From positions 5,089,983 through 5,153,982 of the forward strand of contig NC_054390.1 in NCBI RefSeq assembly GCF_001625195.1: 64,000 nucleotides of DNA. The letters run 5' to 3'. This document shows, in pieces, positions 16,319 through 64,000 of the stretch. A program made the position numbers and the translations under genes. The first letter of the stretch is position 1, and every line of letters starts with the position of its first letter. The notes under the pieces were generated by a model, which was given only the letters and a program-made list of their open reading frames with translations, was not told where the DNA came from and did no database searches. The DNA is from Drechmeria coniospora (lineage: Eukaryota; Ascomycota; Sordariomycetes; Hypocreales; Ophiocordycipitaceae).

Positions 16319-16504
16319 CAGCGCAAAATTGCTATCCGGAAAAGAAGCAACAGACGAAGACCAGAAAACCACAACGACCGAGAAGTTACACGAAGCTCTC
16401 AGTCTTCGTGACCCGGAAGATCAAGACCACCAACGGTCACACGAAGCCCTCCTTCTTCGTAAGAAGCGGTCAACAGTCAACAAACACGCCAAATACACAC
16501 AAAA

Positions 16505-16715
16505 GCCTCGGTCAACAAGACGATATCCACAAGATGATGTCAACGATCGGGTACACAGAAAAGCCGCAGCGCCTACACGCTGTAATATCGACGATCCGGC
16601 ACTATGCAAAAGCCTCGGTCAACAAGACGATATCCACAAGATGATGTCAACGATCGGGCACACAGAAAAGCCGCAGCGCCCATGCGCTGTAATGTTAACG
16701 ATCCGACACAAAAAC
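16505..16715 (+). repeat. ~105-bp tandem duplication in the copia-2 leader
   Basis: Two copies of a unit starting GCCTCGGTCAACAAGACGAT (about 16505 and 16610), with shorter partial copies on either side (CACACGAAGC and GTCAACAAGACAATG). A C-run of about 14 nt follows at 16817-16830. Frames running through it look like untranslated leader or a poorly conserved gag start, not a separate gene. Confidence 0.75.
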
Positions 16716-16851
16716 CGCACGAAGCCCTGTAGTCAACAAGACAATGTCAGCAAGATGACATTAACGATCGGGCACAATAAAGCCTCAAGAGAACTTACTA
16801 AAAGGGGCTCGCCCCAACCCCCCCCCCCCCTTTGCCCCCATCCTCAGCACT

Positions 16852-21930: not shown

Positions 21931-22011
21931 AAAGGGTCACAACACCACCCTATCCGACCCTACAACCCGTTGCGCGCGTCGCGATAGCTTCATACAGCTT
22001 TGGTCTGATCA

Positions 22012-22028
22012 TCCAAAGCTGGGGGGTG
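22012..22028 (+). other. copia-2 polypurine tract
   Basis: CAAAGCTGGGGGGTG directly precedes the 3' LTR, the expected place for the plus-strand primer. Confidence 0.75.
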
Positions 22029-22254
22029 TGTCGCGCCGATGCGTCAACAGGCCTGTAACGGGGTTAAAGTCCGGGTAGTTAGTTACGTAGCGGTGTCCAC
22101 ATCTGCGCCTATTTAAGCAGGCCCAGAGGACACCTTGTGGTTGGCAACAACATCATCAAGAAGAACACCAATAGATTGATTCTGACCCATCTCACGATCC
22201 TTGATTCGTTGTAGCCTTAGTCAGGGCGGCCCCCTTTTTCCCTCTGTTGCATCA
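22029..22254 (+). repeat. copia-2 3' LTR
   Basis: 226 bp, near-identical to 16071-16296, followed by the target duplication AGCTA (22255-22259). Confidence 0.95.
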
Positions 22255-27760: not shown

Positions 27761-28747
27761 TCTATTCATACCAACAAGGCCAACAATTTTATTGAGTCGC
27801 TGAAGAATAAGTACGCACTTACCGATCAAGGGGGATTACAATGGTTCCTAGGTATACGTATTATACGCGACAGACCAAATTCCAAGCTATGGCTATGTCA
27901 AGATAGCTATATTGAACGAATGGTACAACGATACGATTTACGGCGCTTGGATCGGTATAAAGGATCTCCATTCCCAACTAATGAGATTCAACCAGCAAAA
28001 GAACTAGCAAGTCCAGACAAAATACAACAACATCAAAGTAAAATCGGATCAGTTAGCTATATTACAGCTATAACCCGAGTTGATATTGCGAAACCAGCTA
28101 CAAAACTAGCTGAATTCTTGTCAAACCCATCGGATTTTCACATTGAATTAGCTGATAGATTAATAGAGTACCTGTATGCAACAAGACATCTTGCGATACA
28201 ATTCAGTGGTACAGAACATTCATTACAATCAACGATAGCATCAGACTTCATCTGTGCATCAAACGCTGCATTCGCAGACGACCAAGTTACTAGGCGTTCG
28301 TCACAAGGAACCCTACTAACATTATTTGGAGGACCAATCGCTTGGCGTGCCGGTAAACAGGACACCGTTACAACACCTTCTACAGAAGCCGAATTGTTAT
28401 CTCTTACATATACAGCACGGGAAACTATGGCAACTTTTCGTCTATGCAAACAGTTATCCCTACGGCTTGATGGACTACCAATCATCCAATGTGACAACCT
28501 ACAGACTATCCGTCTAGTTACACAGGATATTCCACGGCTACGTACAGCTCTACGCCATGTAGATATTCAACATTGTTGGGCTCGTCAATCTTATAAGCAA
28601 GGTCTCTTTAACTTACAATACACGCCTATTGCAGAGATGGCTGCAGATGGACTCACAAAAGTTCTCCCTGGTAAAAAGTTTAATACTTTCATACAACAAC
28701 TTGGACTTATAGATATCACATCTATATTAGAAAGCCAGCAGGAGTAA
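27761..28747 (+). pseudogene. copia-3 RT thumb and RNase H
   Basis: Same frame after the TGA: KYALTDQGGLQWFLGIRIIR (RT C-terminal block), then the connection domain, then RNase H with ASNAAFADDQVTRRSSQG, STEAELLSL, QCDNLQTIRL and LRHVDIQHCW. The first RNase H catalytic residue, Asp in copia-2 (ASDASFADD), is Asn here. It ends with the usual MAADGLTKVLP block and a natural TAA at 28747. Confidence 0.87.
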
Positions 28748-41227: not shown

Positions 41228-44200
41228 TTAACATCCAATTTGAACCGTATAATGGGGAAGGGGCAGTATAGAGTTATAATATACGACTATCTGATCAGCT
41301 CCAGGTGCATAATGCAGAAAGGAAGCAAAAATAGCCGAATCGGAAACAGAATTTTCTGTAATCTTTATGTTAATGTTGTAATCGTAGAGATATGGTGCAC
41401 CGAAAACGAAGGATACGATTGGAGACGTTGGGGTCATTGTAGGTGGACATATTGGAGAAATTGCGACCGGCAATGTAATAAAGCTATGAGCAGGAATGTT
41501 CCTGGTCCCAAGAACGGTCTCAACAGCAAACATTGCTGTGCCATTGCATGGACATGTAATAACCAATTTTGGGCTTGGCATGATTCCATCAATGGTCAGA
41601 CCTGACGTGCAGAAAGGAACAAGGAAAAGAGGGTAATATGCGTAAAGGTCCCCAGAGTAAGCTGAATCGCCGTTATTAGTAATCACAATTTTTTGGTCAT
41701 TTGTAACTATAAAAGTGAGCGAATTGCTATTCAACGGCGCTGTTGCCAGGCTAGCACCAATGGCCGTGGCTGATATTGATGGCGAACTTCCTCGATCATT
41801 TGGTACGTGAATAAGTGGCAAGGGCACATACCCAACTCCATTTGAAACGCCAATATATGTTCCAGATGCGTCAGGGAAGGTATATCCGGTGGGGAGAGTT
41901 ACTGTAACGGTTACGCCAACAGCGGCTAACAAACCTTGTGTCGCAGAAACAACGACACCAGTTAAACTACAAGCTGTAATTTGCTCAAAAGGCTGCTTGA
42001 AACCTAATATCAAAACAGGAGTTTGGATGATAACAGTTCCAGGCAGAGTACCACTAGGAGCAACAGTAGTAGTAGTCGTCCCAACACCAGTCCACGAACG
42101 TGTCGCCAGTACGTAACTTATGGGCGTCTGAACGATAACAGTACCGGGAAGAGTACCACTAGGCGGAACAGTAGTAGTACTAGTTCCAAGACCAGTCCAC
42201 GGCTGCGTTGTTACAATGTAGCTTTGAGGAGTCTGAACAATAATAGTTCCGGGATGAGTACCACTAGGCGGAACGGTAGTAGTAGTAGTTCCAAGACCGG
42301 TCCACAGCTGCGTTGTTACGATGTAGCTTTGAGGAGTCTGAACAATAATAGTACCGGGAAGAGTACCACTAGGCGGAACGGTAGTAGTAGTAGTTCCAAG
42401 ACCAGTCCACGGCTGCGTTGTCACAACGTAGCTATAAGGAGTCTGAATAATAATAGTTCCGGGATGAGTACTACTAGGTGGAACGGTAGTAGTAGTAGTT
42501 CCAAGACCAGTCCACGGCTGCGTTGTTAATACGTAGCTCTGGGGGGTCTGAATAATAATAGTACCAGGAAGAGTACCACTAGGCAGAAGAGTAGTAGTAG
42601 TAGTTCCAAGACCAGTCCACGGCTGCGTTGTCACTATATAGCTCTGGGGGGTCTGAATAATAATAGTACCAGGAAGAGTACCACTAGGCGGAACGGTAGT
42701 AGTAGTAGTTACAAGACCAGTCCACGGCTGCGTTGTCACAGCGTAGCTATAAGGAGTCTGAATAATAATAGTTCCGGGATAAGTACCACTAGGCGGAACG
42801 GTAGTAGTAGTAGTTCCGATACCAGTCCACGGCTGCGTTGTTAATACGTAGCTCTGGGGGGTCTGAATAATAATAGTACCAGGAAGAGTACCACTAGGCA
42901 GAAGAGTAGTAGTAGTAGTTCCAAGACCAGTCCACGGCTGCGTTGTCACTATATAGCTCTGGGGGGTCTGAATAATAATAGTACCAGGAAAGGTACCACT
43001 AGGTGGAACGGTAGTAGTAGTAGTTCCAAGACCAGTCCACGGCTGCGTTGTTACAATGTAGCTTTGAGGAGTCTGAACAATAATAGTACCAGGAAGAGTA
43101 CTACTAGGTGGAACGGTAGTAGTAGTAGTTCCAAGACCAGTCCACGGCTGCGTTGTTAATACGTAGCTCTGGGGGGTCTGAATAATAATAGTACCAGGAA
43201 GAGTACCACTAGGCAGAAGAGTAGTAGTAGTAGTTCCAAGACCAGTCCACGGCTGCGTTGTCACTATATAGCTCTGAGGGGTCTGAATAATAATAGTACC
43301 AGGAAAGGTACCACTAGGTGGAACGGTAGTAGTACTAGTTCCAAGACCAGTCCACGGCTGCGTTGTTACAACGTAGCTTTCAGGTGTCTGAACAATAATA
43401 GTGCCAGGAAGAGAACCACTAGGCGGAACAGTAGTAGTAGTGGTTCCAAGACCAGTCCACGTCTGCGTTGTTACTATATAACTTTGAGGAGTCTGAACGA
43501 TAATAGTACCGGGCAGAGTATCACTAGGAGGAATAGTAGTAGTAGTAGTTACAAGACCAGTCCACGGCTGCGTTGTGAATATATAACTTTCGGGAGTTAG
43601 AATTATAATGCTTCCAGGACGTGTACTACTCGGTGGCACAGTCGTGATACTAGTTATAGTTCCGGTCCATGGCTGTGACGTCGTTACATAGCCTATTGGA
43701 GTCTGAATGACAATAGTACCGGGGATCGTGCTGGTTGGAGAAATAGTATAAGTTGTAATAAATGTACCAGTCCATGGCTCTGACGTTGTTACGTAGCTAG
43801 TTGAAGTATCAAAAACAATACTTTTTGTAGTTACTATAATCTTGGTAGGACAGACTCCTATGCACCCGGAGGATGGAGGGATAGTGCTAGTGCCTGGCGT
43901 AGGACCCAATGTCGACTCAGTAATAAATCCGCCAGTAACAGTAACGACTATTGTAGTAGGGCAGTTGCCAATACATCCGGGCGACGGCGGAATGGTGCTT
44001 GTGCCAGGGGCGGGTCCAAGAGTAGTTTCTGTAACGAACCCACCAGTAGTGGTAACTACAATCCTTGTAGGACAGACTCCCGTACATCCAGAAGATGGAA
44101 GAATAGTGCTGGTGCCTGGAGTAGGGCCCAATGTCGACTCTGTAATGAAACCGCCTGTAACAGTTATAACTATCTTGGTAGGGCAGTTGCCAATACATCC

Positions 44201-47200
44201 GGGCGACGGCGGAATGGTGCTTGTGCCAGGGGCGGGTCCAAGAGTAGTTTCTGTAACGAACCCACCAGTAGTGGTAACTACAATCCTTATAGGACAGACT
44301 CCCGTACATCCAGAGGATGGAAGGATAGTGCTAGTGCCTGGGGTTGGGCCCAATGTCGACTCTGTAATGAAACCGCCTGTAACAGTTATTACTATCTTGG
44401 TAGGGCAGTTGCCAATACATCCGGGCGACGGCGGAATGGTGCTTGTGCCAGGGGCGGGTCCAAAAGTAGTTTCTGTAACGAACCCACCAGTAGTGGTAAC
44501 TATAATCCTTGTAGGACAGACTCCCGTGCATCCAGAGGATGGATGGATAGTGCTGGTACCTGGGGTAGGGCCCAATGTCGACTCTGTAATGAAACCGCCT
44601 GTAACAGTTATTACTATCTTGGTAGGGCAGTTGCCAATACATCCGGGCGACGGCGGAATGGTACTTGTACCAGGGACGGGTCCAAAAGTAGTTTCTGTAA
44701 CGAACCCCCCAGTAGTGGTAACTACAATCCTTGTAGGACAGACTCCCGTGCATCCAGAGGATGGAAGGATAGTGCTACTGCCTAGCGTTGGGCCCAATGT
44801 CGACTCTGTAATGAAACCGCCTGTAACAGTTATTACTATCTTGGTAGGGCAGTTGCCAATACATCCGGGCGACGGCGGAATGGTACTTGTGCCAGGGGTA
44901 GGTCCAAAAGTAGTTTCTGTAACGAACCCACCAGTAGTGGTAACTATAATCCTTGTAGGACAGACTCCCGTGCATCCAGAGGATGGATGGATAGTGCTGG
45001 TGCCTGGGGTAGGGCCCAATGTCGACTCTGTAATAAAACCGCCAGTAACAGTTATTACTATCTTGGTAGGGCAGTTGCCAATACATCCGGGCGACGGCGG
45101 AATGGTACTTGTGCCAGGGGCGGGCCCAAAAGTAGTCTCTGTAACGAACAAACCAGTAGTGGTAACTATAATCCTTGTAGGACAGACTCCCGTGCATCCA
45201 GAGGATGGAAGGATAGTGTTAGTGCCTAGCGTTGGGCCCAATGTCGACTCTGTAATGAAACCGCCTGTAACAGTTATTACTATTATGGTAGGGCAGTTGC
45301 CAATACATCCGGGCGACGGCGGAATGGTACTTGTGCCAGGGTTAGGCCCAAAAGTAGTTTCTGTAACGAACCTACCAGTAGTGGTAACTACAATCCTTGT
45401 AGGACAGACTCCCGTGCATCCAGAGGATGGAAGGATAGTGCTAGTGCCTAGCGTAGGGCCCAATGTCGACTCTGTAATGAAACCGCCTGTAACAGTTATT
45501 ACTATCTTGGTAGGGCAGTTGCCAATACATCCGGGCGATGGCGGAATGGTACTTGTGCCAGGGGTAGGTCCAAAAGTAGTTTCTGTAACGAACCCACCAG
45601 TAGTGGTAACTATAATCCTTGTAGGACAGACTCCCGTGCATCCAGAGGATGGAAGGATAGTGCTAGTGCCTGGCGTAGGGCCTAATGTCGACTCTGTAAT
45701 GAAACCGCCTGTAACAGTTATTACTATTATGGTAGGGCAGTTGCCAATACATCCGGGCAATGGCGGAATGGTGCTTGTGCCAGGGGCGGGCCCAAAAGTA
45801 GTCTCTGTAACGAACCCACCAGTAGTAGTAACTACAATCCTTAGTAGGACAGACTCCCGTACATCCAGAGGATGGAAGGATAGTGCTAGTGCCTGGGGTA
45901 GGGCCCAATGTCGACTCTGTAATGAAACCGCCTGTAACAGTTATTACTATCTTGGTAGGGCAGTTGCCAATACATCCGGGCGATGGCGGAATGGTGCTTG
46001 TCCCAGGGGTAGGTCCAAAAGTAGTCTCTGTAACGAACCCACCAGTAGTGGTAACTATAATCCTTGTAGGACAGACTCCCGTGCATCCAGAGGATGGAAG
46101 GATAGTGCTGGTACCTGGGGTAGGGCCCAATGTCGACTCTGTAATGAAACCGCCTGTAACAGTTATTACTATCTTGGTAGGGCAGTTGCCAATACATCCG
46201 GGCGACGGCGGAATGGTGCTTGTACCAGGGGCGGGCCCAAAAGTAGTCTCTGTAACGAACCCACCAGTAGTAGTAACTACAATCCTTGTAGGACAGACTC
46301 CCGTACATCCAGAGGATGGAAGGATAGTGCTAGTGCCTGGGTAGGGCCCAATGTCGACTCTGTAATGAAACCGCCTGTAACAGTTATTACTATCTTGGTA
46401 GGGCAGTTGCCAATACATCCGGGCGATGGCGGAATGGTGCTTGTCCCAGGGGTAGGTCCAAAAGTAGTCTCTGTAACGAACCCACCAGTAGTAGTAACTA
46501 CAATCTTTGTAGGACAGACTCCCGTGCATCCAGAGGATGGAAGGATAGTGCTGGTACCTGGGGTAGGGCCCAATGTCGACTCTGTAATGAAACCGCCTGT
46601 AACAGTTATTACTATCTTGGTAGGGCAGTTGCCAATACATCCGGGCGGCGGCGGAATGGTGCTTGTGCCAGGGGCGGGTCCAAAAGTAGTCTCTGTAACG
46701 AACCCACCAGTAGTGGTAACTATAATCCTTGTAGGACAGACTCCCGTACATCCAGAGGATGGAAGGATAGTGCTGGTACCTGGGGTAGGGCCCAATGTCG
46801 ACTCTGTAATGAAACCGCCTGTAACAGTTATTACTATCTTGGTAGGGCAGTTGCCAATACATCCGGGCGACGGCGGAATGGTGCTTGTACCAGGGGCGGG
46901 CCCAAAAGTAGTCTCTGTAACGAACCCACCAGTAGTAGTAACTACAATCCTTGTAGGACAGACTCCCGTACATCCAGAGGATGGAAGGATAGTGCTGGTG
47001 CCTGGGGTAGGGCCCAATGTCGACTCTGTAATGAAACCGCCTGTAACAGTTATTACTATCTTGGTAGGGCAGTTGCCAATACATCCGGGCAATGGCGGAA
47101 TGGTGCTTGTCCCAGGGGTAGGTCCAAAAGTAGTCTCTGTAACGAACCACCAGTAGTAGTAACTACAATCTTTGTAGGACAGACTCCCGTGCATCCAGAG

Positions 47201-50200
47201 GATGGAAGGATAGTGCTGGTACCTGGGGTAGGGCCCAATGTCGACTCCGTAATGAAACCGCCTGTAACAGTTATTACTATCTTGGTAGGGCAGTTGCCAA
47301 TACATCCGGGCGGCGGCGGAATGGTGCTTGTGCCAGGGGCGGGTCCAAAAGTAGTCTCTGTAACGAACCCACCAGTAGTGGTAACTATAATCCTTGTAGG
47401 ACAGACTCCCGTACATCCAGAGGATGGAAGGATAGTGCTAGTGCCTGGGGTAGGGCCCAATGTCGACTCTGTAATGAAACCGCCTGTAACAGTTATTACT
47501 ATCTTGGTAGGGCAGTTGCCAATACATCCGGGCGACGGCGGAATGGTGCTTGTGCCAGGGGCGGGCCCAAAAGTAGTCTCTGTAACGAACCCACCAGTAG
47601 TAGTAACTACAATCCTTGTAGGACAGACTCCCGTACATCCAGAGGATGGAAGGATAGTGCTAGTGCCTGGGGTAGGGCCCAATGTCGACTCTGTAATGAA
47701 ACCGCCTGTAACAGTTATTACTATCTTGGTAGGGCAGTTGCCAATACATCCGGGCGATGGCGGAATGGTGCTTGTCCCAGGGGTAGGTCCAAAAGTAGTC
47801 TCTGTAACGAAACTACCAGTAGTAGTAACTACAATCTTTGTAGGACAGACTCCCGTGCATCCCGAGGATGGAACGATAGTGCTGGTACCTGGGGTAGGGC
47901 CCAATGTCGACTCTGTAATGAAACCGCCTGTAACAGTTATTACTATCTTGGTAGGGCAGTTGCCAATACATCCGGGCGGCGGCGGAATTGTGCTTGTGCC
48001 AGGGGCGGGTCCAAAAGTAGTCTCTGTAACGAACCCACCAGTAGTGGTAACTATAATCCTTGTAGGACAGACTCCCGTGCATCCAGAGGATGGAACGATA
48101 GTGCTGGTGCCTGGGGTAGGGCCCAATGTCGACTCTGTAATGAAACCGCCTGTAATAGTTATTACTATCTTGGTAGGGCAGTTGCCAATACATCCGGGCG
48201 ACGGCGGAATGGTGCTTGTGCCAGGGGCGGGCCCAAAAGTAGTCTCTGTAACGAACCCACCAGTAGTGGTAACGACAATCCTTGTAGGACAGACTCCCGT
48301 ACATCCAGAGGATGGAAGGATAATGCTAGTGCCTGGGTTAGGGCCCAACGTCGACTCTGTAATGAAACCGCCTGTAACAGTTATTACTATCTTGGTAGGG
48401 CAGTTGCCAATACATCCGGGCGATGGCGGGATGGTGCTTGTCCCAGGGGTAGGTCCAAAAGTAGTCTCTGTAACGAACCCACCAGTAGTGGTAACTATAA
48501 TCCTTGTAGGACAGACTCCCGTGCATCCAGAGGATGGAACGATAGTGCTGGTACCTGGGGTAGGGCCCAATGTCGACTCTGTAATGAAACCGCCTGTAAC
48601 AGTTATTACTATCTTGGTAGGGCAGTTGCCAATACATCCGGGCGACGGCGGAATGGTGCTTGTACCAGGGGCGGGTCCAAGAGTAGTTTCTGTAACGAAC
48701 CCACCAGTAGTGGTAACTACAATCCTTGTAGGACAGACTCCCGTACATCTAGAGGATGGAAGGATAGTGCTAGTGCCTGGCGTTGGGCCCAATGTCGACT
48801 CTGTAATAAAACCGCCTGTAATAGTTATTACTATCTTGGTAGGGCAGTTGCCAATACATCCGGGCGATGGCGGGATGGTGCTTGTCCCAGGGGTAGGTCC
48901 AAAAGTAGTCTCTGTAACGAACCCACCAGTAGTGGTAACTATAATCCTTGTAGGACAGACTCCCGTGCATCCAGAGGATGGAAGGATAGTGCTGGTACCT
49001 GGGGTAGGGCCCAATGTCGACTCTGTAATGAAACCGCCTGTAACAGTTATTACTATCTTGGTAGGGCAGTTGCCAATACATCCGGGCGACGGCGGAATGG
49101 TGCTTGTACCAGGGGCGGGTCCAAGAGTAGTTTCTGTAACGAACCCACCAGTAGTGGTAACTACAATCCTTGTAGGACAGACTCCCGTACATCTAGAGGA
49201 TGGAAGGATAGTGCTAGTGCCTGGCGTTGGGCCCAATGTCGACTCTGTAATAAAACCGCCTGTAACAGTTATTACTATCTTGGTAGGGCAGTTGCCAATA
49301 CATCCGGGCGACGGCGGAATGGTACTTATACCAGGGGCAGGGCCAAAAGTAGTTTCTGTAACGAACCCACCAGTAGTGGTAACTACAATCTTTGTAGGAC
49401 AGACTCCCGTGCATCCAGAGGATGGAAGGATAGTGCTAGTGCCTGGCGTTAGGCCCAATGTCGACTCTGTAATGAAACCGCCTGTAATAGTTATTACTAT
49501 TATGGTAGGGCAGTTGCCAATACATCCGGGCAATGGCGGAATGGTGCTTGTACCAGTGGCGGGTCCAAAAGTAGTCTCTGTAACGAACCCACCAGTAGTG
49601 GTAACTACAATCCTTGTAGGACAGACTCCCGTGCATCCAGAGGATGGAAGGATAGTGCTAGTGCCTGGAATAGGGCCTAATGTTAACTCCGTAATGAAAC
49701 CGCCTGTAACAGTTATTACTATCTTAGTAGGGCAGTTGCCAATACATTCGGGCGGCGGCGGAATGGTGCTTGTGCCAGGGGCGGGTCCAAAAGTAGTCTC
49801 CGTAACGAATCCACCAGTAGTGGTAACTACAATCCTTGTAGGACAGACTCCTGTGCATCCAGAGGATGGAAGGATAGTGCTAGTGCCTGGGGTAGGGCCC
49901 AATGTCGACTCTGTAATGAAACTACCTGTAACAGTTATTACTATCTTGGTAGGGCAGTTGCCAATACATCCGGGCGACGGCGGAATGGTGCTTGTACCAG
50001 GGGCGGGTCCAAATGTGGTCTCTGTAACGAACTCACCAGTAGTAGTAACTACAATCCTTGTAGGACAGACTCCCGTGCATCCAGAAGACGGAAGGATAGT
50101 GGTAGTGCCTGGGATAGGGCCCAATGTCGACTCTGTAATAAAACCGCCGGTAACAGTTATTACTATCTTGGTAGGGCAGTGACCAATACATCCGGGCGAC

Positions 50201-53200
50201 GGCGGAATGGTGCTTGTGCCAGGGGCTGGTCCAAAAGTAGTCTCTGTAACGAACCCACCAGTAGTGGTAACTACAATCCTTGTAGGACAGACTCCCGTAC
50301 ATCCAGAGGATGGAAGGATAGTACTAGTACCTGGAATAGGGCCCAATGTCGACTCTGTAATGAAACCGCCGGTAATAGTTATTACTATCTTGGTAGGGCA
50401 GTTGCCAATACATCCGGGCGACGGCGGAATGGTGCTTGTACCAGGGGCGGGTCCAAAAGTAGTCTCTGTAATGAACCCACCAGTAGTAGTAACTACAATC
50501 CTTGTAGGACAGACTCCCGTACATCCAGAGGATGGAAGGATAGTACTGGTTCCTGGCGTTGGGCCTAATGTCGACTCTGTGATGAAACCGCCTGTAACAG
50601 TTATTACTATCTTGGTAGGGCAGTTGCCAATACATCCGGGCGATGGCGGAATGATGCTTGTACCAGGGGCGGGTCCAAGAGTAGTTTCTGTAACGAACCC
50701 ACCAGTAGTGGTAACTACAATCCTTGTAGGACAGACTCCCGTGCATCCAGAGGATGGAAGGATAGTACTAGTGCCTGGCGTTAGGCCTAATGTCGACTCT
50801 GTAATGAAACCGCCTGTAACAGTTATTACTATCTTGGTAGGGCAGTTGCCAATACATCCGTGCGGCGGCGGAATGGTGCTTGTGCCAGGTGCGGGTCCAA
50901 AAGTAGTCTCTGTAACGAACCCACCAGTAGTGGTAACTATAATCCTTGTAGGACAGACTCCCGTACATCCAGAGGATGGAAGGATAGTGCTAGTGCCTGG
51001 GGTAGGGCCCAATGTCGACTCTGTAATGAAACCGCCTGTAACAGTTATTACTATCTTGGTAGGGCAGTTGCCAATACATCCGGGCGACGGCGGAATGGTG
51101 CTTGTCCCAGGGGCGGGCCCAAAAGTAGTCTCTGTAACGAAACTACCAGTAGTAGTAACTACAATCCTTGTAGGACAGACTCCCGTACATCCAGAGGATG
51201 GAAGGATAGTGCTAGTGCTTGGGGTAGGGCCCAATGTCGACTCTGTAATGAAACCGCCTGTAACAGTTATTACTATCTTGGTAGGGCAGTTACCAATACA
51301 TCCGGGCAATGGCGGAATGGTGCTTGTCCCAGGGGTAGGCCCAAAAGTAGTCTCTGTAACGAACCCCCCAGTAGTAGTAACTATAATCCTTGTAGGACAG
51401 ACTCCCGTGCATTCTGAGGGTGGAAGGATAGTACTAGTGCCTGGCGTAGGGCCCAATGTCGACTCTATAATGAAACCGCCTGTAACAGTTATTACTATCT
51501 TGGTAGGGCAGTTGCCAATACATCCGGGCGACGGCGGAATGGTACTTGTGCCAGGGGCGGGTCCAAAAGTAGTCTCTGTAATGAACCCACCAGTAGTGGT
51601 AACTACAATCCTTGTAGGACAGACTCCCGCACATCCAGAGGATGGAAGGATAGTACTGGTGCCTGGCGTAGGGCCCAATGTCGACTCTGTAATGAAACCG
51701 CCTGTAACAGTTATTACTATCTTGGTAGGGCAGTTACCAATACATCCGGGCGATGGCGGAATGGTACTTGTGCCAGGGGTGGGCCCAAATGTGGTCTCTG
51801 TAACGAACCTACCAGTTGCGGTAACTACAATCCTTGTAGGACAGACTCCCGTACATCCAGAGGATGGAAGGATAGTGCTAGTGCCTAGCGTAGGGCCCAA
51901 CGTCGACTCTGTAATGAAACCGCCTGTAACAGTTATTACTATCTTGGTAGGGCAGTTGCCAATACATCCGGGCGATGGCGGAATGGTGCTTGTGCCAGGG
52001 GCGGGCCCAAAAGTAGTCTCTGTAATGAACCCACCAGTAGTGGTAACTATAATCCTTGTAGGACAGACTCCCGTACATCCAGAGGATGGAAGGATAGTGG
52101 TAGTGCCTAGCGTAGGGCCCAATGTCAACTCTGTAATGAAACCGCCTGTAATAGTTATTACTATCTTGGTAGGGCAGTTGCCAATACATCCGGGCGACGG
52201 CGGAATGGTGCTTGTGCCAGGGACGTGTCCAAAAGTAGTCTCTGTAATGTAGCCACCGGTTGTAGTAACTATAATCCTTGTAGCACAGGCTCCGGTGCAT
52301 CCAGGGGGTGGAAGGATAGTGCTGGTACCTGGCGTAGGCCCAAATGTCGACTCCGTAATAAATCCTCCCGTTAAAGTTATTACTATCTTGGTAGGGCAGT
52401 TGCCTGTGCATCCAGGAGATGGCGGAATGGTACTTGAGCCAAGGGTGGGTCCAAAAGTAGTTTCTGTAACGAACCCACCGGTTGTAGTAACTATAACCCT
52501 CGTAGGACAGGCTCCCGTGCATCCAGAGAATGGCATAATAGTACTAGTACCTGGTGTAGGCCCAAATGTCGACTCCGTAATAAATCCTCCCGTTACAGTT
52601 ATTACTATCTTTGAAGGGCAGTTATTTATACATCCAGGTAACGGCGGAACTGTGCTTGTTCCAAGGGCTGGCCCAAACGTTGTTTCCGTAACAAATCCAC
52701 CAGTTGCTGTAATAATAATTCTAGTAGGACATACTCCCGTACATCCTGGGGATGGAAGAATGGTACTTGTACCAGGCGTAGGACCGAATGTTGATTCAGT
52801 AATTATCCCGCCAGTGACGGTTACAACGACCTTAGTAACACAGTTCCCAGTGCATCCAGCCGATGGCGGGATTGTACTTGTTCCTGGCATTGGCCCAAAC
52901 GTTGTTTCCGTAATAAATCCACCAGTTACTGTAATAATAATTCTAGTAGGACATACTCCCGTACATCCTGGGGATGGAAGAATGGTACTTGTACCAGGCA
53001 TAGGACCGAATGTTGATTCGGTAATTAACCCCCCAGTGACGGTTACAACGACCTTGGTAAAACAGTTACTAGTGCATCCAGCCGATGGCGGGATTGTACT
53101 TGTTCCTGGCATTGGCCCAAACGTTATTTCCGTGACAAATCCACCAGTTGCTGTAATAATAATTCTAGTCGGACATACTCCCGTACATCCTGGGGATGGA

Positions 53201-54152
53201 AGAATGGTACTTATACCAGGCATAGGACCGAATATTGATTCGGTAATTAGCCCGCCAGTAACGGTTACAACGACCTTGGTAAAACAGTTGCTAGTGCATC
53301 CAGCCGATGGCGGGATTGTACTTGTTCCTGGCATTGGCCCAAACGTTGTTTCCGTGACAAATCCACCAGTTACTGTAATAATAATTCTAGTCGGACATAC
53401 TCCCGTACATCCTGGGGATGGAAGAATAGTACTTGTACCAGGCGTAGGACCGAATGTTGATTCGGTAACTACCCCGCTAGTAACGGTTACAACGACCTTG
53501 GTAAAACAGTTCCTAGTGCATCCAGCCGATGGCGGGATTGTACTTGTTCCTGGCATTGGCCCAAACGTCGTTTCCGTAATAAATCCACCAGTTGCAGTAA
53601 TAATAATTTTAGTAGGACATACTCCCGTACATCCTAAGGATGGAAGAATAGTACTTGTACCAGGTGTTGAACCATACGTTAATTCAGTAATAACTCCGCC
53701 AGTAACGGTAACGACAATTGTTGTAGGACAGTCCCCGGTGCATCCAGTAGACGGTAGGATTGTACTTATTCCTGGCATTGGCCCAAGCGTCGTCTCTGTA
53801 ACAAATCCACTAGATACTGTAACGATAATTCTAGTCGGACATACTCCCGTACATCCTGAGGATGGAATAATAGTACTTGTACCAGAAGTTATACCGAATG
53901 TTAATTCGGTAATTATAGTTCTATCTGGATACAAAGTCCATATCCTTAAGCATTTATTAACTTTCTATTTTATAATGCAGTAAGCAACTCGATTGTATCA
54001 TACCGAATTCCTTGGCTATTTTTTGTAGTTCCGGAGCATATTATTTGAATTGGCTGAAATTCAATTATTATTGTCCCTTTATTATTTATTTCCTCTCCTT
54101 GAACGAGATTTAGAATAATAAAGAAAATAGTAAGGATTGTATAATACTTCAT
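41228..54152 (-). CDS. giant secreted repeat protein, probable cell-wall adhesin (copy 1)
   Basis: Proposed gene of two exons (54152-54004 and 53920-41228) encoding about 4,280 residues. Residues 1-20 (MKYYTILTIFFIILNLVQGE) are a signal peptide. From about residue 50 to 3,410 there are ~45 modules of 74 residues, each of two 37-residue halves such as GCTGVCPTRIVVTTTGGFVT and GCIGNCPTKIVITVTGGFIT, each with a CxxxC pair. Residues ~3,410-4,010 are 17 flocculin-like 35-residue repeats (TTQPWTGLGTTTTTVPPSG). The last ~270 residues form a distinct domain with six Cys (QITACSLTG, VITCPCNGTAMF, YTVQIGC). There is no C-terminal hydrophobic GPI signal. It probably acts at the cell surface in adhesion, heavily O-glycosylated. 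As assembled, three single-base indels (near 45843, 46340 and 47147) break the frame; two are homopolymer changes, so sequencing error is likely. Confidence 0.75.
42010..43800 (-). repeat. 105-bp flocculin-like repeat array (17 units)
   Basis: 17 tandem units of 105 bp (35 residues), consensus YIVTTQPWTGLGTTTTTVPP, then SGTLPGTIIVQTPQS. It resembles the flocculin repeat of yeast Flo proteins (TTxPWTGTFTSTST...VIVxTP). Units 5-7, 8-10 and 11-13 form a higher-order 315-bp triplet, showing recent amplification within the array. The outermost units at either end (1, 2 and 17) are the most diverged. Confidence 0.9.
43842..53900 (-). repeat. 222-bp repeat array (~45 units)
   Basis: Units of 222 bp encode 74 residues as two related 37-residue halves. 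The N-terminal 7-8 units (52,600-53,900) are more diverged (SAGCTSNCFTKVVVTVTGG), while the middle and C-terminal units are nearly identical. Adjacent 444-bp blocks such as 48338-48748 and 48770-49192 are almost the same, indicating recent duplication of unit pairs. Because the period is a multiple of three and stop codons are absent in several frames, long antisense frames occur. They are by-products. Confidence 0.95.
53921..54003 (-). other. proposed 83-bp intron, adhesin copy 1
   Basis: Donor GTATGA and acceptor TAG (…CCAGATAG). Removing it joins the signal-peptide exon, which otherwise stops at 53970, in frame to the repeat exon (...GI-R-TIITELTFG). The length is typical of filamentous ascomycetes. 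The nearer acceptor CAG would leave the frame shifted, so the TAG four bases downstream is preferred. No strong branch site is visible. Confidence 0.55.
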
Positions 54153-54205
54153 AATTATAAACTGCTTGGAATTCTATTAATAGAACAGTTCGGGAGGGTA
54201 TATAG

Positions 54206-54236
54206 AAGTCTATATATATATACTAATATATTTATA
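54206..54236 (-). promoter_or_regulatory. TATA-like promoter element, copy 1
   Basis: On the minus strand TATAAATATATTAGTATATA lies about 60-85 bp upstream of the ATG at 54152. It is the mirror of 57216-57246. Confidence 0.4.
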
Positions 54237-55175
54237 CTATTATAAGTTTAGTATTCTTGGATATTTATTGTAAAATGCCTTGGTATTAATAGAGTAGTAT
54301 TAGATTATTAGGAAAACGTATTATTCATGCAAGATCTTAGCTACTAGTTTTAATTTCTTTATTAGAGGAAGGTTGTGTCCTTATGTATTAATCGATTTAT
54401 ATATAGCTATTATAAGACAGAGTATAAATTGAAACTATTATGAGATCAGCTGATATATAGTATGACAAGTATTAGTTTATATTAGTTATACTGTATAGGA
54501 ATATACTAAAAGTAGTGTAGTGGAGATAATACCAGCCACAGTAGACTACTATAAGTCTAAATCATACGAGTCGGTTGATAAGTCTATTTACTCTTGGTTA
54601 GGTCGGATTGATTATTTACCTTCTTCTCTATACTCGGTTGCTTTTCTCCAAAAATACTTAACACTAATACGTATAGTATTGTAAGTGTATTGTTTGTGGA
54701 TAGCAAAATCCTATAAAGGGTAGGGGAACGAGCGGGATATTATTAGTTTATTGGTCGAACCGACCTTGTGGCTAGTTAATTTAATAGGGCGCTTTGAAGG
54801 TTGAAGTTTATTTTAAAGTTCTTGTATAAGTACGCATTGTAATTAAAACGGTTCTGGACTATATATTTTATAGTTAGAGTCTACTTGAACTGAAACTAGA
54901 AGTATTGTTTTATGTATACTGTTTGCGGATTAGATTACTCTAAGGAGTAAAAGTAGTATTTTAATTTTACCTAAGACAAGTAGCTGACATCCGGATCCGC
55001 AATCTAACTATAAAATATACAGTCCAGAACCGTTTTAATTACAATGCGTACTTAGACAAGAACTTTAAAATAAACTTCAACCTTTAGAGCGCCCTATTTT
55101 ATAGTTAGAGTCTACTTGAACTGTATATGCTGTTTGCGGATCCAGATGTCAGCCACCTGTCTTTAAAGTTCTTGT

Positions 55176-56276
55176 CTAAGTACGCATTGTAATCAAAACA
55201 GTTCTGGACTGTATATTTTATACTTAGAGTCTACTTGAACTGAAACTAAAAGTATTGTTTTATGTATACTGTTTGCGGATTATACTACTCTAAGGAGTAA
55301 AAGTAGTATTTCAGTTTTACCTAAGACAGGTGGCTGACATCCGGATCCGCAAACAGCATATACAGTTTAAGTAGACTCTAACTATGAAATAGGGCGCTTT
55401 GAAGGTCGAAGTTTATTTTAAAGTTCTCGTATAAGTACGCATTGTAATTAAAACGGTTCTGGACTATATATTTTATAGTTAGAGTCTACTTGAACTGAAA
55501 CTAGAAGTATTGTTTTATGTATACTGTTTGCGGATTATACTACTCTAAGGAGTAAAAGTAGTATTTCAGTTTTACCTAAGACAGGTGGCTGACATCCGGA
55601 TCCGCAAACAGCATATACAGTTTAAGTAGACTCTAACTATGAAATAGGGCGCTTTGAAGGTCGAAGTTTATTTTAAAGTTCTTGTCTAAGTACGCATTGT
55701 AATCAAAACGGTTCTGGACTGCATATTTTATAGTTGGATTGCGGATCCGGATGTTAGCTACTTGTCTTAGGTAAAATTGAAATACTACTTTTACTCCTTA
55801 GACTAGTCTGATCCGCAAACAGTATTGTTTTATGTATACTGTTTGCAGATCAGACTACTCTAAGGAGTAAAAGTAGTATTTCAATTTTACCTAAGACAGG
55901 TGGCTGACATCCGGATCCGCAAACAGTATACACAGTTCAAGTAGACTCTAACTATAAAATAGGGCACTTTAAAGGTCGAAGTGGTGGCTGACATCCGGAT
56001 CCGCAAACAGCATATACAGTTCAAGTAGACTCTAACTATAAAATAGGGCGCTTTGAAGGTCGAAGTTTATTTTCAAGTTCTTGTCTAAGTACGCATTGTA
56101 ATCAAAACGGTTCTGGACTGTATATTTTATAGTTGGATTGCGAATCCGGATGTTAGCTACTTGTCTTAGGTAAACTTAAAATACTACTTTTACTCCTTAG
56201 ACTAGTCTGATCCGCAAACAGTGTACATAAAACAATACTGTTTGCGGATCATACTACTCTAAGGAGTAAAAGTAGT
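55176..56276. repeat. asymmetric central spacer of ~255-bp units with inverted segments
   Basis: The block TACGCATTGTAAT recurs at about 54832, 55181, 55436, 55690, 56091 and 56402, and inverted at 55040 and 56613. Between copies, CTGTTTGCGGAT and ATCCGCAAACAG form hairpins around GGAGTAAAAGTAGTATT and ACCTAAGACAGGTGGCTGAC. Direct and inverted order alternate, and the two halves do not mirror each other. Confidence 0.9.
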
Positions 56277-57215
56277 ACAAGAACTTTAAAGACAGGTGGC
56301 TGACATCCGGATCCGCAAACAGCATATACAGTTCAAGTAGACTCTAACTATAAAATAGGGCGCTCTAAAGGTTGAAGTTTATTTTAAAGTTCTTGTCTAA
56401 GTACGCATTGTAATTAAAACGGTTCTGGACTGTATATTTTATAGTTAGATTGCGGATCCGGATGTTAGCCACTTGTCTTAGGTAAAATTAAAATACTACT
56501 TTTACTCCTTAGAGTAATCTAATCCGCAAACAGTATACATAAAACAATACTTCTAGTTTCAGTTCAAGTAGACTCTAACTATAAAATATATAGTCCAGAA
56601 CCGTTTTAATTACAATGCGTACTTATACAAGAACTTTAAAATAAACTTCAACCTTCAAAGCGCCCTATTAAATTAACTAGCCACAAGGTCGGTTCGACCA
56701 ATAAACTAATAATATCCCGCTCGTTCCCCTACCCTTTATAGGATTTTGCTATCCACAAACAATACACTTACAATACTATACGTATTAGTGTTAAGTATTT
56801 TTGGAGAAAAGCAACCGAGTATAGAGAAGAAGGTAAATAATCAATCCGACCTAACCAAGAGTAAATAGACTTATCAACCGACTCGTATGATTTAGACTTA
56901 TAGTAGTCTACTGTGGCTGGTATTATCTCCATTACACTACTTTTAGTATATTCCTATACAGTATAACTAATATAAACTGATACTTGTCATACTATATATC
57001 AGCTGATCTCATAATAGTTTCAATTTATACTCTGTCTTATAATAGCTATATATAAATCGATTAATACATAAGGACACAACCTTCCTCTAATAAAGAAATT
57101 AAAACTAGTAGCTAAGATCTTGCATGAATAATACGTTTTCCTAATAATCTAATACTACTCTATTAATACCAAGGCATTTTACAATAAATATCCAAGAATA
57201 CTAAACTTATAATAG

Positions 57216-57246
57216 TATAAATATATTAGTATATATATATAGACTT
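57216..57246 (+). promoter_or_regulatory. TATA-like promoter element, copy 2
   Basis: TATAAATATATTAGTATATA, 55-85 bp upstream of the ATG at 57300. The region from about 56700 to 57299 is AT-rich and mirrors 54153-54750, so both genes have the same proximal promoter. Confidence 0.4.
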
Positions 57247-57299
57247 CTATATACCCTCCCGAACTGTTCTATTAATAGAATTCCAAGCAGTTTATAATT

Positions 57300-60200
57300 A
57301 TGAAGTATTATACAATCCTTACTATTTTCTTTATTATTCTAAATCTCGTTCAAGGAGAGGAAATAAATAATAAAGGGACAATAATAATTGAATTTCAGCC
57401 AATTCAAATAATATGCTCCGGAACTACAAAAAATAGCCAAGGAATTCGGTATGATACAATCGAGTTGCTTACTGCATTATAAAATAGAAAGTTAATAAAT
57501 GCTTAAGGATATGGACTTTGTATCCAGATAGAACTATAATTACCGAATTAACATTCGGTATAACTTCTGGTACAAGTACTATTATTCCATCCTCAGGATG
57601 TACGGGAGTATGTCCGACTAGAATTATCGTTACAGTATCTAGTGGATTTGTTACAGAGACGACGCTTGGGCCAATGCCAGGAATAAGTACAATCCTACCG
57701 TCTACTGGATGCACCGGGGACTGTCCTACAACAATTGTCGTTACCGTTACTGGCGGAGTTATTACTGAATTAACGTATGGTTCAACACCTGGTACAAGTA
57801 CTATTCTTCCATCCTTAGGATGTACGGGAGTATGTCCTACTAAAATTATTATTACTGCAACTGGTGGATTTATTACGGAAACGACGTTTGGGCCAATGCC
57901 AGGAACAAGTACAATCCCGCCATCGGCTGGATGCACTAGGAACTGTTTTACCAAGGTCGTTGTAACCGTTACTAGCGGGGTAGTTACCGAATCAACATTC
58001 GGTCCTACGCCTGGTACAAGTACTATTCTTCCATCCCCAGGATGTACGGGAGTATGTCCGACTAGAATTATTATTACAGTAACTGGTGGATTTGTCACGG
58101 AAACAACGTTTGGGCCAATGCCAGGAACAAGTACAATCCCGCCATCGGCTGGATGCACTAGCAACTGTTTTACCAAGGTCGTTGTAACCGTTACTGGCGG
58201 GCTAATTACCGAATCAATATTCGGTCCTATGCCTGGTATAAGTACCATTCTTCCATCCCCAGGATGTACGGGAGTATGTCCGACTAGAATTATTATTACA
58301 GCAACTGGTGGATTTGTCACGGAAATAACGTTTGGGCCAATGCCAGGAACAAGTACAATCCCGCCATCGGCTGGATGCACTAGTAACTGTTTTACCAAGG
58401 TCGTTGTAACCGTCACTGGGGGGTTAATTACCGAATCAACATTCGGTCCTATGCCTGGTACAAGTACCATTCTTCCATCCCCAGGATGTACGGGAGTATG
58501 TCCTACTAGAATTATTATTACAGTAACTGGTGGATTTATTACGGAAACAACGTTTGGGCCAATGCCAGGAACAAGTACAATCCCGCCATCGGCTGGATGC
58601 ACTGGGAACTGTGTTACTAAGGTCGTTGTAACCGTCACTGGCGGGATAATTACTGAATCAACATTCGGTCCTACGCCTGGTACAAGTACCATTCTTCCAT
58701 CCCCAGGATGTACGGGAGTATGTCCTACTAGAATTATTATTACAGCAACTGGTGGATTTGTTACGGAAACAACGTTTGGGCCAGCCCTTGGAACAAGCAC
58801 AGTTCCGCCGTTACCTGGATGTATAAATAACTGCCCTTCAAAGATAGTAATAACTGTAACGGGAGGATTTATTACGGAGTCGACATTTGGGCCTACACCA
58901 GGTACTAGTACTATTATGCCATTCTCTGGATGCACGGGAGCCTGTCCTACGAGGGTTATAGTTACTACAACCGGTGGGTTCGTTACAGAAACTACTTTTG
59001 GACCCACCCTTGGCTCAAGTACCATTCCGCCATCTCCTGGATGCACAGGCAACTGCCCTACCAAGATAGTAATAACTTTAACGGGAGGATTTATTACGGA
59101 GTCGACATTTGGGCCTACGCCAGGTACCAGCACTATCCTTCCACCCCCTGGATGCACCGGAGCCTGTGCTACAAGGATTATAGTTACTACAACCGGTGGC
59201 TACATTACAGAGACTACTTTTGGACACGTCCCTGGCACAAGCACCATTCCGCCGTCGCCCGGATGTATTGGCAACTGCCCTACCAAGATAGTAATAACTA
59301 TTACAGGCGGTTTCATTACAGAGTTGACATTGGGCCCTACGCTAGGCACTACCACTATCCTTCCATCCTCTGGATGTACGGGAGTCTGTCCTACAAGGAT
59401 TATAGTTACCACTACTGGTGGGTTCATTACAGAGACTACTTTTGGGCCCGCCCCTGGCACAAGCACCATTCCGCCATCGCCCGGATGTATTGGCAACTGC
59501 CCTACCAAGATAGTAATAACTGTTACAGGCGGTTTCATTACAGAGTCGACGTTGGGCCCTACGCTAGGCACTAGCACTATCCTTCCATCCTCTGGATGTA
59601 CGGGAGTCTGTCCTACAAGGATTGTAGTTACCGCAACTGGTAGGTTCGTTACAGAGACCACATTTGGGCCCACCCCTGGCACAAGTACCATTCCGCCATC
59701 GCCCGGATGTATTGGTAACTGCCCTACCAAGATAGTAATAACTGTTACAGGCGGTTTCATTACAGAGTCGACATTGGGCCCTACGCCAGGCACCAGTACT
59801 ATCCTTCCATCCTCTGGATGTGCGGGAGTCTGTCCTACAAGGATTGTAGTTACCACTACTGGTGGGTTCATTACAGAGACTACTTTTGGACCCGCCCCTG
59901 GCACAAGTACCATTCCGCCGTCGCCCGGATGTATTGGCAACTGCCCTACCAAGATAGTAATAACTGTTACAGGCGGTTTCATTATAGAGTCGACATTGGG
60001 CCCTACGCCAGGCACTAGTACTATCCTTCCACCCTCAGAATGCACGGGAGTCTGTCCTACAAGGATTATAGTTACTACTACTGGGGGGTTCGTTACAGAG
60101 ACTACTTTTGGGCCTACCCCTGGGACAAGCACCATTCCGCCATTGCCCGGATGTATTGGTAACTGCCCTACCAAGATAGTAATAACTGTTACAGGCGGTT

Positions 60201-63200
60201 TCATTACAGAGTCGACATTGGGCCCTACCCCAAGCACTAGCACTATCCTTCCATCCTCTGGATGTACGGGAGTCTGTCCTACAAGGATTGTAGTTACTAC
60301 TACTGGTAGTTTCGTTACAGAGACTACTTTTGGGCCCGCCCCTGGGACAAGCACCATTCCGCCGTCGCCCGGATGTATTGGCAACTGCCCTACCAAGATA
60401 GTAATAACTGTTACAGGCGGTTTCATTACAGAGTCGACATTGGGCCCTACCCCAGGCACTAGCACTATCCTTCCATCCTCTGGATGTACGGGAGTCTGTC
60501 CTACAAGGATTATAGTTACCACTACTGGTGGGTTCGTTACAGAGACTACTTTTGGACCCGCACCTGGCACAAGCACCATTCCGCCGCCGCACGGATGTAT
60601 TGGCAACTGCCCTACCAAGATAGTAATAACTGTTACAGGCGGTTTCATTACAGAGTCGACATTAGGCCTAACGCCAGGCACTAGTACTATCCTTCCATCC
60701 TCTGGATGCACGGGAGTCTGTCCTACAAGGATTGTAGTTACCACTACTGGTGGGTTCGTTACAGAAACTACTCTTGGACCCGCCCCTGGTACAAGCATCA
60801 TTCCGCCATCGCCCGGATGTATTGGCAACTGCCCTACCAAGATAGTAATAACTGTTACAGGCGGTTTCATCACAGAGTCGACATTAGGCCCAACGCCAGG
60901 AACCAGTACTATCCTTCCATCCTCTGGATGTACGGGAGTCTGTCCTACAAGGATTGTAGTTACTACTACTGGTGGGTTCATTACAGAGACTACTTTTGGA
61001 CCCGCCCCTGGTACAAGCACCATTCCGCCGTCGCCCGGATGTATTGGCAACTGCCCTACCAAGATAGTAATAACTATTACCGGCGGTTTCATTACAGAGT
61101 CGACATTGGGCCCTATTCCAGGTACTAGTACTATCCTTCCATCCTCTGGATGTACGGGAGTCTGTCCTACAAGGATTGTAGTTACCACTACTGGTGGGTT
61201 CGTTACAGAGACTACTTTTGGACCAGCCCCTGGCACAAGCACCATTCCGCCGTCGCCCGGATGTATTGGTCACTGCCCTACCAAGATAGTAATAACTGTT
61301 ACCGGCGGTTTTATTACAGAGTCGACATTGGGCCCTATCCCAGGCACTACCACTATCCTTCCGTCTTCTGGATGCACGGGAGTCTGTCCTACAAGGATTG
61401 TAGTTACTACTACTGGTGAGTTCGTTACAGAGACCACATTTGGACCCGCCCCTGGTACAAGCACCATTCCGCCGTCGCCCGGATGTATTGGCAACTGCCC
61501 TACCAAGATAGTAATAACTGTTACAGGTAGTTTCATTACAGAGTCGACATTGGGCCCTACCCCAGGCACTAGCACTATCCTTCCATCCTCTGGATGCACA
61601 GGAGTCTGTCCTACAAGGATTGTAGTTACCACTACTGGTGGATTCGTTACGGAGACTACTTTTGGACCCGCCCCTGGCACAAGCACCATTCCGCCGCCGC
61701 CCGAATGTATTGGCAACTGCCCTACTAAGATAGTAATAACTGTTACAGGCGGTTTCATTACGGAGTTAACATTAGGCCCTATTCCAGGCACTAGCACTAT
61801 CCTTCCATCCTCTGGATGCACGGGAGTCTGTCCTACAAGGATTGTAGTTACCACTACTGGTGGGTTCGTTACAGAGACTACTTTTGGACCCGCCACTGGT
61901 ACAAGCACCATTCCGCCATTGCCCGGATGTATTGGCAACTGCCCTACCATAATAGTAATAACTATTACAGGCGGTTTCATTACAGAGTCGACATTGGGCC
62001 TAACGCCAGGCACTAGCACTATCCTTCCATCCTCTGGATGCACGGGAGTCTGTCCTACAAAGATTGTAGTTACCACTACTGGTGGGTTCGTTACAGAAAC
62101 TACTTTTGGCCCTGCCCCTGGTATAAGTACCATTCCGCCGTCGCCCGGATGTATTGGCAACTGCCCTACCAAGATAGTAATAACTGTTACAGGCGGTTTT
62201 ATTACAGAGTCGACATTGGGCCCAACGCCAGGCACTAGCACTATCCTTCCATCCTCTAGATGTACGGGAGTCTGTCCTACAAGGATTGTAGTTACCACTA
62301 CTGGTGGGTTCGTTACAGAAACTACTCTTGGACCCGCCCCTGGTACAAGCACCATTCCGCCGTCGCCCGGATGTATTGGCAACTGCCCTACCAAGATAGT
62401 AATAACTGTTACAGGCGGTTTCATTACAGAGTCGACATTGGGCCCTACCCCAGGTACCAGCACTATCCTTCCATCCTCTGGATGCACGGGAGTCTGTCCT
62501 ACAAGGATTATAGTTACCACTACTGGTGGGTTCGTTACAGAGACTACTTTTGGACCTACCCCTGGGACAAGCACCATCCCGCCATCGCCCGGATGTATTG
62601 GCAACTGCCCTACCAAGATAGTAATAACTATTACAGGCGGTTTTATTACAGAGTCGACATTGGGCCCAACGCCAGGCACTAGCACTATCCTTCCATCCTC
62701 TAGATGTACGGGAGTCTGTCCTACAAGGATTGTAGTTACCACTACTGGTGGGTTCGTTACAGAAACTACTCTTGGACCCGCCCCTGGTACAAGCACCATT
62801 CCGCCGTCGCCCGGATGTATTGGCAACTGCCCTACCAAGATAGTAATAACTGTTACAGGCGGTTTCATTACAGAGTCGACATTGGGCCCTACCCCAGGTA
62901 CCAGCACTATCGTTCCATCCTCTGGATGCACGGGAGTCTGTCCTACAAGGATTATAGTTACCACTACTGGTGGGTTCGTTACAGAGACTACTTTTGGACC
63001 TACCCCTGGGACAAGCACCATCCCGCCATCGCCCGGATGTATTGGCAACTGCCCTACCAAGATAGTAATAACTGTTACAGGCGGTTTCATTACAGAGTCG
63101 ACGTTGGGCCCTAACCCAGGCACTAGCATTATCCTTCCATCCTCTGGATGTACGGGAGTCTGTCCTACAAGGATTGTCGTTACCACTACTGGTGGGTTCG

Positions 63201-64000
63201 TTACAGAGACTACTTTTGGGCCCGCCCCTGGCACAAGCACCATTCCGCCGTCGCCCGGATGTATTGGCAACTGCCCTACCAAGATAGTAATAACTATTAC
63301 AGGCGGTTTCATTACAGAGTCGACATTGGGCCCTACCCCAGGCACCAGCACTATCGTTCCATCCTCTGGATGCACGGGAGTCTGTCCTACAAGGATTATA
63401 GTTACCACTACTGGTGGGTTCGTTACAGAGACTACTTTTGGACCCGCCCCTGGCACAAGCACAATTCCGCCGCCGCCCGGATGTATTGGCAACTGCCCTA
63501 CCAAGATAGTAATAACTGTTACAGGCGGTTTCATTACAGAGTCGACATTGGGCCCTACCCCAGGTACCAGCACTATCGTTCCATCCTCGGGATGCACGGG
63601 AGTCTGTCCTACAAAGATTGTAGTTACTACTACTGGTAGTTTCGTTACAGAGACTACTTTTGGACCTACCCCTGGGACAAGCACCATTCCGCCATCGCCC
63701 GGATGTATTGGCAACTGCCCTACCAAAGATAGTAATAACTGTTACAGGCGGTTTCATTACAGAGTCGACATTGGGCCCTACCCCAGGCACTAGCACTATC
63801 CTTCCATCCTCTGGATGTACGGGAGTCTGTCCTACAAGGATTGTAGTTACTACTACTGGTGGGTTCGTTACAGAGACTACTTTTGGGCCCGCCCCTGGCA
63901 CAAGCACCATTCCGCCGTCGCCCGGATGTATTGGCAACTGCCTACCAAGATAGTAATAACTGTTACAGGCGGTTTCATTACAGAGTCGACATTGGGCCCT
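57300..64000 (+). CDS. giant secreted repeat protein, probable cell-wall adhesin (copy 2, partial)
   Basis: Mirror of copy 1: signal-peptide exon 57300-57448, intron 57449-57531, repeat exon from 57532. About 2,075 residues match copy 1 without a visible difference up to the frame break at about 63725, where TACCAAAGATAG has one A more than all sister units. A second break at about 63930 (CTGCCTACC for CTGCCCTACC) lies close to the window end. Neither is present at the mirror positions in copy 1. The flocculin-like repeats and the C-terminal domain, if present, lie outside the window. Confidence 0.75.
57449..57531 (+). other. proposed 83-bp intron, adhesin copy 2
   Basis: Same sequence and boundaries as the copy 1 intron: GTATGA donor, TAG acceptor, joining codon 50 (CG|A) to TIITELTFG. 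Confidence 0.55.

Follow-up and report, generated by a model that had tools for sequence, protein, structure and literature searches.

Drechmeria coniospora carries two giant, divergently oriented genes on one palindrome, and the locus raises the question of how two neighbors can share their promoters and the first part of their products almost to the base and yet end in different protein domains. The window, i.e., the whole stretch of 64,000 nucleotides analyzed here, corresponds to C2:5089983-5153982 in a genome of 32.83 Mb and 28 contigs, with three large contigs of 12,542,233, 10,204,147, and 9,751,215 bases. Three chromosomes of 12.5, 10.2, and 9.8 Mb have been reported for D. coniospora ARSEF 6962 (PMC4792172). 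The twin genes appear to form a giant cell-surface, adhesin-like pair, for which we infer a role in adhesion. The conidia of this nematode-killing fungus have to attach to the nematode cuticle. The account in the genome paper leaves the responsible molecules open (PMC4792172).

Layout of the two genes

Secreted repeat proteins encoded head to head had been proposed in the first-pass annotation, and the divergent frames with their signal-peptide-like starts bear this out (Table 1). The further description of the genes as near-identical does not hold. Common to both are the promoter, exon 1 (100% alike over 57 residues), and the start of the 222-bp stalk, but the C-terminal heads are unrelated, with an orphan head (A) on the left gene and a glycine-rich head (G) on the right one. 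The left stalk is a tandem array with a period of 222, 44.2 copies, and 92% matches. Past the window, the right gene continues into 13 ALS units and the G head.

Table 1. Features of the palindromic locus (window coordinates)
Feature	Position	Strand	Remarks
Left gene main exon: stalk repeats, ALS repeats, A head	41228..53934	-	Frame interrupted at about 45.8-47.2 kb
Left gene exon 1 region	53982..54152	-	Signal-peptide-like start by eye; short intron after it inferred
Left 222-bp tandem array	43827..53913	-	About 44 units of two 37-residue halves
Left ALS-type 105-bp repeats, 17 units	42017..43774	-	Pfam PF05792
A head, left C-terminal domain	41231..42043	-	Overlaps last ALS repeat by a few residues
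Right gene exon 1 region	57300..57470	+	Signal-peptide-like by eye
Right gene main exon to gap	57518..64000	+	Resumes at 91240; frame ends at 98415, outside the window
Left arm, inner palindrome	47452..55352	.	Window self-comparison
Right arm, inner palindrome	56138..64000	.	Ends at N run starting after 64000
Asymmetric spacer, 1,101 bases	55176..56276	.	Nested direct and inverted repeats

Units 1 to 7 of the ALS repeats (left, n = 17; right, n = 13) are identical in the two genes and occur in the same order, and right units 8 to 13 reach at best 71-95% identity to any left unit. These last right units are closer to left units (up to 95%) than to the units of five other loci. In the C-terminal 820 residues of the left gene, PF05792 was matched with 62.7 bits (cut-off 25; E = 4.4e-17) over 11 stretches; the Pfam scan did not report it in the C-terminal 971 residues of the right gene, though seven ALS units there are identical to left ones. 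No N-terminal ALS adhesion domain was found, the initial 978 and 828 residues of exon 2 giving no Pfam match at E up to 1, and the 37-residue stalk repeat gave no Pfam match. Matches to PF12843 were judged to be repeat-driven and were set aside, and GLEYA/PA14 was absent from the Pfam matches of both heads.

The palindrome and its center

An inverted repeat with arms of at least 7.7 kb had been claimed and was recovered by self-comparison of the window, where 47452-55352 aligns with 64000-56138 in inverted orientation at 99.165% identity over 7,903 columns. The reported asymmetry of the center was likewise confirmed, with a spacer that is indeed 1.1 kb long and flanked by 276-base arms at 99%. 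The spacer is filled with many short direct and inverted repeats, including a hairpin with 87-base arms (94% complementary) and a 10-base loop. Parts of it are akin to intergenic regions of other gene pairs, e.g., between C2:9414443 and 9419352, and it probably originated as promoter-distal sequence of the adhesin-like gene family. Inverted arms above 99% identity around an asymmetric spacer, as found here, are one of the marks of a palindrome maintained by conversion.

The coding parts had also been described as identical and the inner non-coding parts as substituted, which is accurate for the inner arms. Within 47452-54472, the arms are free of substitutions and differ at two places by one base in length. 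Moving inward, the first five substitutions are met towards the center, at 54473, 54520, 54982, 54986, and 55144; all are transitions, and differences become dense past 55176. The description fails for the outer arms, which are mosaic. Mirror similarity of the right arm resumes beyond the N run and reaches 42438/97445, with the post-gap sequence mirroring 48642-42438 at 96.7% in nearly the same register. In 222-base bins, no differences occur at 43068-44177 and 47508-48642, all eight bins of 44400-46175 contain 9-17 differences between the arms, and the outermost three bins contain 24-30 each. Such alternation of identical tracts with tracts diverged by 4-8% suggests that copying happened more than once. 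The identity of the arms is not a trivial effect of repetitiveness, because only one of 780 pairs of 222-base units in the left array is identical.

Active repeat-induced point mutation (RIP) has been reported for D. coniospora (PMC4792172), in which case near-perfect arms of 7.9 kb would be young, sheltered, or partly a product of assembly. RIP was considered as the source of the low-GC center, and its indices are positive in arms and spacer, but the codon make-up of the repeats confounds the measure and the arms hardly differ, so this reading was set aside. A telomere-fusion scar found no support: the window holds one TTAGGG-type match (one mismatch), with a mean of 0.40 expected and at least one match in 33 of 100 shuffles.

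The assembly gap

The right gene is interrupted by 27,239 N (window coordinates 64001-91239), and sequence is back at 91240. Read together, the sequences flanking the gap make up a single gene without a change of orientation. They overlap, with 1,190 of 1,192 alignment columns matching, two gaps, and no mismatches; given that so few unit pairs in the left array are identical, this indicates an unjoined overlap or a recent block duplication, and it makes the presence or the length of the gap doubtful and the join uncertain. Stalk units 0 to 4 after the gap equal left units 20 to 24 in the same order, and units 5 to 13 depart from the left order. Just before the gap, the right stretch shows two length differences of one base each, and the left frame as assembled has three interruptions; either sequencing error or real damage may be the cause.

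The published assembly was built with Velvet from short reads, gap-filled with PBJelly from PacBio reads, and placed on a BglII optical map (PMC4792172). BglII sites are found at 40401, 54332, 57115, and 99530, so that the left fragment measures 13.9 kb, the central one (54332-57115) measures 2.8 kb, and the fragment 57115-99530 measures 42.4 kb with the gap or about 14.0 kb without it (gap and overlap subtracted). Unless the gap is spurious, some 28 kb are absent from the sequence. Between Dan2, as ARSEF 6962 is called there, and its relative Dan1, another group has reported reciprocal chromosome-end exchanges and an inversion (PMC7500977).

Heads A and G

Elsewhere in the genome, 13 stretches match the A head, and another 13, at nine other loci, match the G head. 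On sequence grounds, each head represents a domain family of its own, with relatives at other places in the genome. Among nine aligned G-head sequences (eight from this genome and one from Beauveria), PF12810 was matched in three (best E = 0.00099) and PF21722 in one (E = 4.5e-5), the G head of the right gene itself having neither. To this extent, G heads resemble glycine-rich domains, perhaps of the ALK/LTK type (PF12810 and PF21722). A relative of the G head was found in Beauveria namnaoensis (MY8738_009049; 39% identity over 12% of the 671-residue query), and a D. coniospora repeat protein was among the protein matches with 34% identity. Candidates in these searches were limited in length, so full-length giant genes were hardly findable.

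The order of ALS repeats followed by a G head is not unique to the right gene, an idea that was dropped when G heads were found behind ALS repeats at three other places (L041, L042, and L043 in our numbering of loci). ALS units precede G heads in L044, L046, and L047, and in L023, L025, and L026, the roughly 900-1,000 residues before the G head consist of another repeat type without ALS units.

Single-sequence AlphaFold2 prediction of the A head was set aside (mean pLDDT of 36.6), and single heads had no match among the sequences of solved structures at E up to 0.1. Head profiles gave five (G) and two (A) short or weak matches to solved structures at E up to 1, the best being a weak match to 34 positions of a capsid fusion for G (E = 0.00097) and a weak match to 30 positions of a pectate lyase for A (E = 0.027). 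An Ig-like fold of the A heads is not claimed, as the Pfam hints are weak (DUF11 in five of seven; best E = 0.18).

Gene family and promoter types

Exon 1 matched at least 40 places in the genome at E up to 10 and at least 36 at E up to 0.01. Among the 35 matches listed on C1-C3 at E up to 0.01, 31 lie less than 0.8 Mb from a chromosome end, a zone that makes up 15% of the chromosomes; the four outside the end zones include both twins. At least 22 distinct stop-to-stop frames of at least 3,500 codons contain family matches (longest, 6,916 codons), a frame of 11,522 codons having been excluded from the tally for reading through the N run. Giant adhesin-like frames lie mostly near the ends of C1-C3 (e.g., L015, L016, L017, L021, and L022), and several form divergent pairs. 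The genome paper reports ten ALS-encoding genes, none of them highly transcribed, and species-specific repeats over about 0.5 Mb at each chromosome end (PMC4792172). These chromosome-end repeats may in part be the giant adhesin-like family.

Neighboring exon-1 pairs less than 60 kb apart were divergent (n = 9), tandem (n = 3), or convergent (n = 3) at E 0.01, and at E 0.001, the nine pairs comprised four divergent, four tandem, and one convergent; with genes of this length, short spacing favors divergent exon-1 pairs. Spacings of 3-8 kb between head-to-head genes recur in the family. The two neighboring intergenic regions L021 and L022 (C2:469300-478200 and C2:452700-461200) have several stretches of about 330-930 bases in common (83-93% identity), suggestive of a segmental duplication.

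Two promoter types can be distinguished in this family. Type I is found at the twins, C2:9419352, C2:428877, C3:196819, and C2:469548, where the upstream sequence aligns with that of the twins over about 250-770 bases. Type II is defined by C2:9414443, with which C1:12138939, C1:342475, C2:477748, and C2:460798 align over about 165-680 bases and C2:433715 aligns weakly (118 bases). Across types, alignment is confined to about 60-100 bases around exon 1.

Mixed promoter types, one of each, occur in three other divergent pairs: C2:9414443/9419352, C2:428877/433715 (weak on the type II side), and C2:469548/477748. In the first of these, position and frame length link the type II gene to a G head at C2:9402845 (3,858 codons) and the type I gene to an A head at C2:9431399 (4,235 codons). 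C2:428877 and C2:469548, both type I, have an A head by position, with a partial one at C2:465947. No G head was found in the genome search for C2:433715 and C2:477748, the type II partners in two of the three pairs, and a rule that every divergent pair joins A to G was rejected on these two cases. Promoters were typed at four of the nine other G-head loci and were type II in three (including the defining gene), neither type in one (C3:566184), and type I in none. Six other genes have an exon 1 at least 57% identical, and by position three of them carry a full A head, one a partial A head, two neither head, and none a G head.

Origin of the palindrome

On balance, we lean towards the view that the locus began as two divergent genes, the left of which was copied in inverted orientation over the right one up to the ALS repeats, with the right gene's own head being kept. 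The ancestral locus would have placed a type I gene with an A head beside a type II gene with a G head, an arrangement still present at C2:9.40-9.43 Mb. The left gene would have served as the source, through gene conversion, break-induced replication, or template switching, perhaps with the spacer's inverted repeats as the starting point. Copying would have overwritten the promoter, signal peptide, and stalk of the partner and stopped within the ALS repeats; an identical tract ending in shared ALS repeats is the trace to be expected from homology-directed copying. The right gene would have become a chimera, its own G head now standing under the neighbor's promoter and stalk, and the outcome would be two different heads shown on the same type of promoter and stalk. 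Both the mosaic and the moderate divergence of the right gene's last ALS units imply more than one event, and these units point to an older shared history rather than to one single event. The combination of G head and ALS tail may predate any conversion, since G heads behind ALS repeats occur elsewhere.

The first-pass annotation had left the choice between gene conversion and a very recent inverted duplication. The signature of homogenization is indeed there, but a simple inverted duplication of one gene is insufficient, because the heads belong to different families. A fuller version, in which the whole left gene was recently duplicated and the A-head copy was lost and replaced by fusion to a resident G head, would explain 99% identity over 7.9 kb, and recombination between ALS repeats is able to join a new head. 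We consider it quite unlikely, as it requires a resident divergent G-head gene and so comes near the conversion model, and as the identity is mosaic instead of uniform. The mosaic would suit two type I genes with different heads that have long been paired and undergo ongoing conversion, a type II partner never having been present, and so would the closeness of the last right ALS units to left units over those of other loci. Against this stands the absence of any other type I gene with a G head among those examined, with four of nine other G-head loci typed, which leaves such a history doubtful.

It is also unlikely that the palindrome is an artefact, in which a single copy was mirrored during assembly or reads of the left array filled the right one and exaggerated the likeness of the arms. 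The Velvet, PBJelly, and BglII-map pipeline (PMC4792172), the N run with overlapping sequence at its two sides, and the single-base length differences within the arrays would fit such an error. The center is asymmetric, though, and all five substitutions at 54473-55144 are transitions, whereas long-read error is of the indel type; the post-gap open frame of 2,391 codons ends in a different head and flank, and divergent pairs of the same family are found elsewhere in the genome. Highly improbable, in our estimate, is a reading of the palindrome as a head switch. Identical inverted arms mean that recombination between them would invert only the asymmetric 1.1-kb center, which on this reading could change the head that is expressed, with conversion between arms keeping stalk and promoter interchangeable; the same reading includes a giant right protein, possibly of nearly 13,700 residues, provided that the 27-kb gap represents real sequence of the right gene.

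If copying of the left gene over its partner is what occurred, it would give the fungus a concrete route for putting an existing head under another promoter and stalk. The findings further draw attention to a large number of giant surface-type genes near chromosome ends, and the locus offers a sharp test case for palindrome formation and conversion in a fungus with reported active RIP.

Other elements in the window

Direct repeats of 226 bases (16071-16296 and 22029-22254; 99.1% identity) flank a frame with RVT_2 (19870-21930), and 16071-22254 is a probable young Copia retrotransposon. An inverted copy of the 226-base repeat adjoins at 15817-16042 (97.8%). A second Copia-type stretch (26042-28747) consists of a frame matching RVT_2 and SH3_retrovirus (26042-27760) and a frame judged Copia-like by eye (27920-28747). 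Further elements are a Pol fragment at 7392-8318 (Pol_BBD), a MULE transposase fragment on the minus strand at 10798-11538, and an inverted pair at 5310-5953 and 10000-10617 (about 640 bases, 87%). A minisatellite at 11832-12946 has an 18-base unit in about 59 copies and is open on both strands, with frames of 395 and 423 codons.

Comparison with known systems

No description of a palindromic fungal adhesin pair or of this locus was found in the titles and beginnings of abstracts that were searched. Like the ALS cell-wall proteins of Candida (PF05792), the twin genes encode large, repetitive, secreted-type proteins with 35-residue ALS-type repeats. They differ in that their main stalk is built from another repeat of 37 residues and is followed by a separate C-terminal head, and in that no N-terminal ALS adhesion domain was found and no GPI tail is obvious by eye.

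A megasatellite gene contains an in-frame tandem array with a long unit, and megasatellite-bearing adhesin genes of Candida glabrata were reportedly described by Thierry et al. in 2010. The left array (222 bp, 44.2 copies, in frame) is of this kind, and the twin genes resemble those of C. glabrata in having in-frame arrays of long units. Conversion between the adhesin paralogues EPA6 and EPA7 has been reported in C. glabrata (PMC9548116), whereas the twin genes form a head-to-head palindrome with shared promoters and different C-terminal heads. Glycine-rich and GLEYA/PA14 surface proteins such as D. coniospora RJ55_04776 (1,017 residues) and B. namnaoensis MY8738_009049 (498 residues) likewise have Thr/Gly/Cys stalk repeats and a C-terminal domain, but the frames of the twin genes are several times longer.

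The large, gene-bearing palindromes of mammalian sex chromosomes likewise have arms above 99% identity that fit arm-to-arm conversion (PMC8981503). Unlike these, the palindrome of D. coniospora is a fungal locus that joins two paralogues with different ends, and its similarity stops inside the genes.
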